DNA from: Peptococcaceae bacterium BICA1-7
Lineage (GTDB): Bacteria > Bacillota > Desulfotomaculia > Desulfotomaculales > Desulfocucumaceae
Direction: 5' to 3'
NCBI GenBank assembly: GCA_000802095.1
Contig: JUEB01000017.1
Coordinates: 248,001 to 312,000, forward strand
DNA: 64,000 nucleotides
In this document: positions 14,982 through 40,828 of the stretch, piece after piece
How the letters are laid out: each line of letters opens with the position of its first letter
Position numbering within the stretch: the first letter of the stretch is position 1
Translations under genes and position numbers: made by a program
The notes under the pieces: generated by a model
What the model was told of the DNA's origin: nothing
What the model saw: only the letters and a program-made list of their open reading frames with translations
Databases searched by the model: none

Positions 14982-15425
14982 CTATCTCACCACCAGCACC
15001 GGGCATCTGGAACGCTGGACAACCTTGTTGCTCACACTTCCAATCAGCCAGGCCTCCATGTCATCCAGGCTCCTGCTGCCAATGATGATAAGTTTATAGT
15101 CCCCCTGTTCGGCCTCTCTTAAAATCTCCACCGCAGGGTCCCCCCAAACAGTTTTTTCGGAGAGGGCAACATCCGTCTGGGCAAAATGCCCGGAAGCGTT
15201 TTTTAGCACCCTTATACCAAAACTTTCAACCCTGCCCTTTATTTCTCCATATATATCCGTAGACCCCTCCCGGCCCGGGTCCAGTACCTCCATGGGCAAG
15301 GGCAGCTGCATTACATGCAACAGAACCACCTCGGAGCCGAATTTAGCAGCCACCCTGGAGGCAGTTTTGGCCAGCAGCACCGAGATGTTGGATCCGTCAA
15401 CAGGTACCAGTATTTTCCCAAACAC
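14982..15425 (-). CDS. Universal stress protein (UspA family)
   Basis: This 147-residue protein has the UspA fold: start FGKILVPVDGS, later LLHVMQL, and the ATP-binding-type end (IIIGSRSLDDMEAWLIGSVS, then KVVQRSRCPVLVV, matching the G-2X-G-9X-G(S/T) pattern). I chose the GTG at 15425 because AAAGGGGG lies 8 bases upstream and the protein then starts as family members do. A longer frame to 15503 runs through a terminator hairpin and is not credible. Upstream on the same strand are two terminators and a cobalamin riboswitch. Confidence 0.9.
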   Translation of the reverse strand: MFGKILVPVDGSNISVLLAKTASRVAAKFGSEVVLLHVMQLPLPMEVLDPGREGSTDIYGEIKGRVESFGIRVLKNASGHFAQTDVALSEKTVWGDPAVEILREAEQGDYKLIIIGSRSLDDMEAWLIGSVSNKVVQRSRCPVLVVR

Positions 15426-15581: not shown

Positions 15582-15607
15582 AAAAGCCCGGCTATAAAGC
15601 CGGGCTT
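15582..15607 (-). terminator. Terminator following the cobalamin riboswitch
   Basis: A 10-bp stem (AAGCCCGGCT/AGCCGGGCTT) with an ATAA loop and a T-run on the minus strand. It lies about 70 bases downstream of the B12 box and could be the riboswitch expression platform. Confidence 0.8.
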
Positions 15608-15659
15608 AAAAGGTAATAAACCTTTTTTATTTCGCCAACGCCAGGCCTTTCTGCGGAAG

Positions 15660-15845
15660 GCTGCAAAAGCAGCGCCCAGGCAGGTCTCCTGACTCACGGA
15701 TCAACACATGCCCCTCGCCTTCCCGGATTATAAAAACCCAGTGGCACTATGAGAAGCCGCTTCCCGTATACAGTGGCCGGACCGTCCGGGATTCTCACCC
15801 GGTTCCCTTTTCACCCCCGTGATTGCGGGGGAACCTGAACAGCGT
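15660..15845 (-). promoter_or_regulatory. Cobalamin (B12) riboswitch
   Basis: Read on the minus strand, the region contains the B12 box (AGTCAGGAGACCTGCCTG at 15677-15694). It also has the conserved core GGGTGAGAATCCCGGACGG and GCCACTG and a GC-rich helix at the 5' end (CCCCCGCAATCACGGGGG). The order and spacing fit the adenosylcobalamin-type aptamer. A terminator follows at 15582-15607, as expected for transcriptional control. The next gene on this strand is uspA, which is not a usual B12 target, so the riboswitch appears to be orphaned. Confidence 0.9.
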
Positions 15846-16025
15846 ATGAAATTATTAATATAATACCAGTTGAGGGGGTATTTGTCCAATAGTTTTAAAA
15901 ACACCCAACAGAACATACCCTTACTACCCTAATCGAATAAAAAAGAAGCCCCGGTAAAAAATATCTTACAGCACTGCATTTTAGGCATTTAATCAATGTA
16001 GAGGCAAAAAAAGGAGGTGACGGCA

Positions 16026-16262
16026 TTGACCGACAGGCAGGTTACCGTCTACACCACCCCTACTTGACCCCACTGCCGAACGGTGAAAGAGTTTCTTTCA
16101 CAAAAAGGTGTCAGCTATACTGAACACGATGTGGCCAAAGACCAGCGGGCCAGGGAGGATATGCTCCGCAAGGCAGGCCGCATGGCTGTTCCCACTATAA
16201 CAGTGGGCGACCAGGTAGTGGTAGGTTTCAACCCCAGTGAGCTGGAAAAGCTGCTGCACTAA
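16026..16262 (+). CDS. Selenocysteine-containing glutaredoxin-like protein (in-frame TGA)
   Basis: This small redox protein of 78 residues is interrupted by an in-frame TGA (16065-16067) exactly where glutaredoxins carry the first active-site cysteine: VYTTPT-U-PHC. The rest is a normal glutaredoxin/NrdH fold with a VPTI motif (MAVPTITVGDQVVVGF). Reading TGA as selenocysteine gives a UxxC active site; selenoproteins of this type (called Uxx-star glutaredoxin-like proteins) are known in anaerobes. The TTG start has an excellent Shine-Dalgarno (AAGGAGGTGA, 16011-16020). A hairpin 16 to 34 bases after the TGA (16083-16101) is a good bacterial SECIS candidate. No selA/selB/selC gene is in the window. 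The alternative is a nonsense mutation, but the intact downstream frame argues against it. Confidence 0.87.
16083..16101 (+). promoter_or_regulatory. SECIS-like hairpin
   Basis: A perfect 8-bp stem (GTGAAAGA/TCTTTCAC) carries a GTT loop whose first base is G. The loop G lies 24 bases after the TGA. Bacterial SECIS elements need a stem-loop with a G at the start of the loop at about this distance. It is within the coding sequence. Confidence 0.7.
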
Positions 16263-16282: not shown

Positions 16283-16328
16283 GCCGTCTTTACAGACGGC
16301 GGAATCCAGAATTCAGAATCCAGAATGG
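16283..16328. repeat. Dispersed GAATCCAG-type repeat with hairpin (copy 1)
   Basis: A hairpin (GCCGTC/GACGGC) is followed by heptamer-like repeats (GGAATCCAGAATTCAGAAT). A near-identical arrangement occurs at 33458-33509, and related repeats occur elsewhere in the window. Confidence 0.75.
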
Positions 16329-16368
16329 TGAAGGCATTCCTTTGCTGCATACCACGTGAAATAAAAAC

Positions 16369-40635: not shown

Positions 40636-40828
40636 AATCACCCCACAAGTGCCGTAAACCCCAAAGTTTCTTGAACCTTAGCTAAATAAGTGGGTGTCCT
40701 CCTGATTACTTATGTTACCTTCAATACAAAGGTCTACAGCCACAACCAGAGACCGGGCTCCCAATGTCAATGTGTTGGTTTAAAACTTCAAGGTGTCCAC
40801 GCACACAGTAGGGTAATTTGCTTTTGTA
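40636..40828 (-). ncRNA. ssrS: 6S RNA
   Basis: This stretch, read on the minus strand, fits 6S RNA: a long rod with closing stem (CCCTAC...GTGGGG), a large central bubble and a terminal stem-loop (ACCTT...AAGGT; CTCTGGTT pairs with AATCAGGAG). It contains CACCTTGAAG and AAGGTTCAAG, resembling segments of E. coli 6S RNA. It lies between aspS and tcdA, where Bacillus carries its 6S-1 gene (bsrA). 6S RNA mimics an open promoter and binds the housekeeping RNA polymerase. Ends are approximate. Confidence 0.88.

Follow-up and report, generated by a model that had tools for sequence, protein, structure and literature searches.

The cobalamin riboswitch lying on the minus strand of the window (the whole stretch of 64,000 nucleotides analysed here) is likely to be a B12-OFF switch that determines whether transcription reads through into a small RNA acting in trans, which would repress a main B12-dependent enzyme of the cell when B12 is scarce. 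The riboswitch is followed by its own terminator (T1), by a short C-rich element (the seed) and by a second terminator (T2). This anatomy is conserved, seed and T2 are associated with matches to the cobalamin riboswitch family RF00174, and the seeds are complementary to the ribosome-binding sites of two B12 enzymes. More broadly, Desulfotomaculum- and Pelotomaculum-type bacteria probably possess a family of such B12-riboswitch trans-acting small RNAs, in which a shared sensor is combined with exchangeable seeds silencing the B12 enzyme of central carbon flow, either CoFeSP of the Wood-Ljungdahl pathway or the methylmalonyl-CoA mutase of propionate oxidation.

The riboswitch and its expression platform

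The initial annotation had described a B12 box and core intact on the minus strand, and this is borne out by a full-length match to the RF00174 covariance model, the check proposed there, at 15662-15853 (minus strand; 132.4 bits, E 4.5e-33), which places the aptamer, in sequence and structure, far above the gathering score of 31.5 bits. The aptamer extends 8 bases past the interval annotated at first and has the top RF00174 score among the seven cobalamin riboswitches of this 4.75-Mb genome; several of the six others are followed by ORFs whose translations resemble cobalamin or cobalt transport and synthesis genes. Upstream of the aptamer, a promoter scan and a four-genome alignment point to a promoter at 15860-15888 (minus strand; TGGACA and TATTAT separated by 17 nt, with an extended TG -10). 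Downstream, alignment and platform comparison define a conserved hairpin, GCCTTCCG-NNN-AAAGGC (15645-15661, minus strand), which we take to be P13-like.

Both of the terminators annotated before the downstream gene are present. T1, the intrinsic terminator of the riboswitch (AAGCCCGGCT-TTAT-AGCCGGGCTT, 15607-15584, minus strand, with its tail at 15583-15576), was recognized from its sequence and from platform comparison; its T tail is short, and a simple terminator scan (rule: 5 T in 8) missed it. T2 (TCCGGCGG-TTTT-CCGCCGGA, 15500-15481, minus strand), an intrinsic terminator with a T run that would end the small RNA, was flagged by the simple scan and lies outside the interval of the initial annotation.

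The 3' arm of the conserved hairpin and the bases next to it may pair with the 5' arm of T1, as a predicted antiterminator. Of 22 platforms, 12 have as their best antiterminator helix the one that joins GGCC-GG, in the 3' arm region of the hairpin, to the 5' arm of T1. In the others the best helix starts in the 3' strand of P1 or at another site, and in the window pairing with the 3' strand of P1 outscores pairing with the hairpin arm. No support for the antiterminator was found in covariation, which speaks neither for nor against it because these stretches hardly vary.

Promoter, aptamer and T1 are about 88% identical in a relative of the same genus (G002), where the T1 stem has another length and yet is retained, and where the same selenoprotein-like glutaredoxin and thioredoxin genes lie upstream; the G002 contig stops just past T1, the seed region lying beyond its end. 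No close copy of the locus was found in G001, also of the same genus. The promoter words, the aptamer, the hairpin and T1 are common to G003 and G007, which represent two other genera of the same family.

This conservation bears on the earlier suggestion that the riboswitch is a remnant whose cobalamin gene has been lost. The synteny comparison proposed along with it did reveal, in G003, a similar riboswitch followed by a gene reading like that of the corrinoid adenosyltransferase, cobO, and a cobO-like gene is found further downstream in G044. However, the seed and T2 of G003 sit between the riboswitch and cobO, the window aptamer is the best-scoring one of its genome, and promoter, platform and T1 are kept both in the same-genus relative and across genera. 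We therefore regard a remnant as very improbable.

Genes downstream of T2

The gene past T2 encodes, as annotated, a universal stress protein (uspA, 14982-15425, minus strand; PF00582, 100.4 bits), with GTG at 15425, after the ribosome-binding site AGGGGG, as its likely start as read from the sequence. Because uspA comes next on the strand of the riboswitch, the latter had also been considered as a B12-responsive switch on it, which would act through transcription past both terminators or through antitermination that depends on B12. However, T2 intervenes before uspA, whose position is not conserved: judging from translations, the genes past T2 vary between loci (uspA, cobO-like, permease, DtxR-like regulator, hypothetical proteins, a convergent gene), and in several loci the next ORF is on the opposite strand. 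Furthermore, in G005, G007 and G002 the regions examined around the relatives of UspA contained no cobalamin riboswitch. A switch on uspA is therefore hardly credible, and the gene is probably independent of the RNA. The remaining suggestion of the initial annotation, a riboswitch-controlled small RNA, is the one that gained support, through the tie of seed and T2 to RF00174, and a predicted target can now be added to it.

A conserved seed between the terminators

The sequence of the window continues past T1 with TTAAACCCAACTCCATATTCCATGTATTG and then T2. The C-rich element between the two terminators (15529-15506, minus strand), beginning with TTAAACCCAACTCC, is marked by pattern searches, duplex predictions and a covariance model as the putative seed of the small RNA, TTAAACCCAACTCCATATTCCATG, complementary to the Shine-Dalgarno sequence (SD) and start codon of acsC. 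The same element is present past T1 in G007 and G003, and a looser form of it in G022 and in G028/G014, the G028/G014 members having been found by eye in a relaxed motif scan.

The covariance model, R1, was built from the seed and T2 of the window, G007 and G003 only (three-sequence alignment A3), with no riboswitch sequence in it, and was run against 113 genomes of the class. In addition to the three training genomes it returned five new matches of 27.7-47.3 bits (G045, G044, G050, G038 and G040). All five of these matches above 27 bits lie on the same strand as, and directly downstream of, RF00174, and in each of them the riboswitch terminator precedes a conserved segment that has a terminator of its own, an arrangement of the AspocR/Rli55 kind discussed below. 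Four matches at 23.7-26.8 bits were not downstream of RF00174, and no match was obtained in the same-genus G001. It should be considered that R1 is not sensitive (G022, G043 and the second copy of G044 score 22.2, 21.5 and 14.6 bits), and the count of 8 of 113 genomes is a lower bound because the strict filters missed members known otherwise.

Only 4-11 nt separate the seed from the T1 stem in 14 of 21 loci, too little for a separate promoter, which argues for read-through from the riboswitch; the gap in the window is 54 nt. The small RNA transcript has no evident coding sequence, unlike those of cis-acting RF00174 riboswitches, with which the window locus shares the aptamer, the B12 box and a terminator-type platform. 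When the window RNA is folded in silico at full length, part of the seed is paired (mean unpaired value 0.56), whereas the seed is mostly open (0.94) if only the 3' part is folded.

Two other readings of the element were rejected. It does not appear to be a dispersed repeat, as its reverse complement is not repetitive in the relatives searched and the window genome contains two copies of the corresponding gapped word. The opposite strand was also read as coding (short ORF M-E/K-Y-G-V...), but the frame is not kept between genomes, and this reading was dropped.

Related modules were observed elsewhere. In G003 (L059, 7041-7100, minus strand), T1 and the acsC-type module are separated by a second seed-like module, AATAACCCCTTCCCCC with a hairpin and a T tract, so that two seeds are possibly arranged in tandem. 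In G030 (L010, 451-700, plus strand), a cobalamin riboswitch precedes a cobO-like gene, and the CU-rich stretch ATCTCCTCTCCTTTCTCC with a hairpin, perhaps another seed, is found past its terminator. Two contigs from public MAGs, L136 (labelled Actinobacteria) and L155 (labelled Dethiobacter), bear a riboswitch of the clade studied here, and these bins may be mislabelled or mixed.

Complementarity to acsC

The SD and start codon to which the window seed is complementary belong to acsC (G000:C26, start near 281419, minus strand), whose product was assigned by family search to CODH/ACS gamma (AcsC), the corrinoid protein of the Wood-Ljungdahl pathway. When the seed pattern of G007 was searched in the antisense direction, with up to two mismatches, in 31 genomes, nine matches were obtained, one of them the seed locus of G007 itself; the pattern matches the SD and start codon of acsC in G001, G002 and G024. 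The gapped word GGAGN{1,3}TGGGTTTAA has exactly two occurrences in the whole window genome, namely the antisense of the seed and the acsC start, and likewise only these two in G007. Over seven genomes it gave 12 matches, seven at acsC, two at seed loci and three within other reading frames (one in G014, two in G028).

The final duplex energies were calculated for the seeds only, leaving out the T2 stem. The predicted seed-acsC duplexes of 11 genomes range from -20.8 to -28.7 kcal/mol. Among 76 start regions (the background being 75 start regions of the window genome), the own acsC ranked first for seven of the 11 seeds, second for three and seventh for one, the first seed of G044, it being understood that C-rich seeds pair to some extent with any SD. 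Shuffled seeds were equal to or better than the real one in 0-3 of 1000 cases in six genomes, in 17-62 in four and in 235 in G044. The duplex of G028 contains 15 unbroken base pairs; that of Desulfotruncus alcoholivorax (G043) reaches -31.4 kcal/mol, and the second RNA of D. arcticus gives -26.0 with acsC. The seed of the Dethiobacter-labelled contig L155 fits the acsC of that bin poorly (-20.0).

The acsC-type seeds show no cognate preference, the window seed giving -26.7 with its own acsC and up to -33.4 with the acsC of other species; covariation is scarce in this set because acsC starts are highly conserved. For 11 of 12 acsC-type seeds, acsC pairs better than every paralogue of mcm, the methylmalonyl-CoA mutase gene, in a comparison whose mcm starts were chosen by script, a few of which look wrong (G007 L201, G028 L196), and which leaves out G040, where no mcm match was found. 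The exception is the first seed of G044, with -20.8 for acsC and -21.3 for mcm.

One of the two riboswitch RNAs of Desulfotruncus arcticus (G044, L116) carries the seed ACCUACUCCUUCUCUC, whose fit to acsC is moderate; the main target of this RNA may be another mRNA.

Pelotomaculum-type seeds and methylmalonyl-CoA mutase

A scan of the named genomes yielded 22 riboswitch loci. Those of the Pelotomaculum type have the same layout and their own T2, but a different conserved seed, AUCUCCUUCUUCC. For this seed acsC was rejected as a partner, as pairing was weak (-16.7 for G013), and mcm took its place. The antisense of AUCUCCUUCUUCC was searched in six Pelotomaculum-type genomes with one mismatch at most and with no gene named; of 59 matches, 30 were reported with loci. 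The mcm ribosome-binding site was matched in three genomes, and two more of the listed matches proved to be the same site, which brings the count to five of six. The mcm product is methylmalonyl-CoA mutase (PF01642/TIGR00641, the G013 copy being tested), a B12 enzyme. The predicted duplexes of these five genomes lie between -23.2 and -31.3, and that of G119 has 19 uninterrupted pairs.

The sixth genome, G120, in which mcm had not been found by the pattern search, served as a test of the prediction. A protein search located its mcm, which reads GGAAGGAGGAGGTATA; the seed of G120 is TATACCTCCTTCTTCC. Both differ from those of the other five genomes, and yet they pair at -28.8. Against the mcm sites of those five genomes the G120 seed reaches only -20.1 to -22.2. 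The sequences thus indicate that seed and target have changed together. Overall, the mcm ribosome-binding site is complementary to the seed in all six Pelotomaculum-type genomes tested, and mcm ranks first of 98 starts (97 of them background) for five of the six seeds and fourth of 98 for that of G117. Conserved complementarity to the ribosome-binding site of a target, as in trans-encoded base-pairing small RNAs, is therefore found for both acsC and mcm.

Two distant methylmalonyl-CoA mutase paralogues, L220 (G000:C11:189118-190575) and L224 (G043:C18:61171-62538), contain one in-frame TAG each.

Discussion

The mechanism that we propose is as follows. When B12 is sufficient, the aptamer of the transcribed locus would fold and T1 would form, leaving only a short leader; when B12 is scarce, T1 would be prevented by antitermination, and the polymerase would read through the seed and stop at T2. 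This direction, with T1 favoured by B12 and read-through in its absence, is the most likely one by analogy to other terminator-type B12 switches. The seed would then cover the SD and AUG of acsC, which should block translation and so repress AcsC synthesis in the cell. In Pelotomaculum-type relatives, the same device with a different seed would be aimed at methylmalonyl-CoA mutase.

It is also conceivable that the RNA made of seed and T2 is real and riboswitch-controlled, but acts mainly on other mRNAs, by binding a protein, or by stabilizing the acsC or mcm mRNA. G044 and G003 do bear further seed-like modules with no identified target, and seeds resembling an anti-SD could reach several mRNAs. 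The seed matches, however, extend over the SD and the start of B12 enzyme genes, where pairing would normally prevent initiation, and two clades converge on such enzymes, so that we consider another mode of action unlikely and repression of the B12 enzyme the preferred reading.

Enterococcus EutX is a B12 riboswitch-regulated non-coding RNA of the same kind and logic as Listeria Rli55. In the available excerpts of PMC8079631, Rli55 has a B12 riboswitch that causes premature termination with B12 and gives a longer RNA without it, the logic being that no B12-dependent enzymes are made when B12 is absent, as proposed here; Rli55, however, uses an ANTAR element to sequester the protein EutV, whereas our RNA is predicted to base-pair with an mRNA. 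The same excerpts describe AspocR of Listeria monocytogenes, a roughly 1,400-nt RNA that is antisense to pocR and controlled by a B12 riboswitch: there too the non-coding transcript is terminated when B12 is present, and the long form made without B12 represses its target (PMC8079631). While AspocR is encoded antisense to a regulator, the predicted target here is the B12-dependent enzyme itself, reached by a short imperfect seed, and the two genes are not antisense to each other, acsC being on contig C26 and the RNA on C17. Listeria SreA, a SAM riboswitch transcript, is described as pairing in trans with the prfA mRNA and blocking its translation, as predicted here, but it acts as the terminated, ligand-bound product, whereas here the read-through form bears a dedicated seed past the terminator (PMC8079631). 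As far as these excerpts go, AspocR, Rli55 and SreA each match part of the design, and none couples a B12 riboswitch to a trans-encoded seed against a B12 enzyme. No report of a B12-riboswitch small RNA directed against acsC or mcm was found in the full-text literature covered, which comprises few subscription papers and parts of PMC8079631, PMC4285132 and PMC6239172.

If the proposed mechanism is true, a metabolite sensor is wired to a distant mRNA through a dedicated base-pairing seed, and serves cofactor economy, stopping the synthesis of a B12 enzyme when B12 is short, as opposed to the usual control of uptake and synthesis. This bears on the way in which corrinoids are rationed by bacteria that rely on them, namely syntrophic and Wood-Ljungdahl bacteria. 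A riboswitch is normally interpreted by the gene that follows it, and orphan riboswitches are for this reason easily dismissed as remnants; looking past the terminator for a conserved seed offers a route to decode others.

Other features of the window

The glutaredoxin gene upstream of the riboswitch (16026-16262, plus strand; PF00462, 72.2 bits) has an in-frame TGA at the expected first Cys of the CxxC motif (TPT-U-PHC), which is kept in G002, and its product is, judging from the sequence, a probable selenoprotein. A short degenerate repeat, AATCCAGAATTCAGAATCCAGAAT (16300-16330), lies between the glutaredoxin and thioredoxin genes and is present in G002 too. Elsewhere in the window, a 6S RNA was found at 40636-40817 (minus strand; 79.2 bits).
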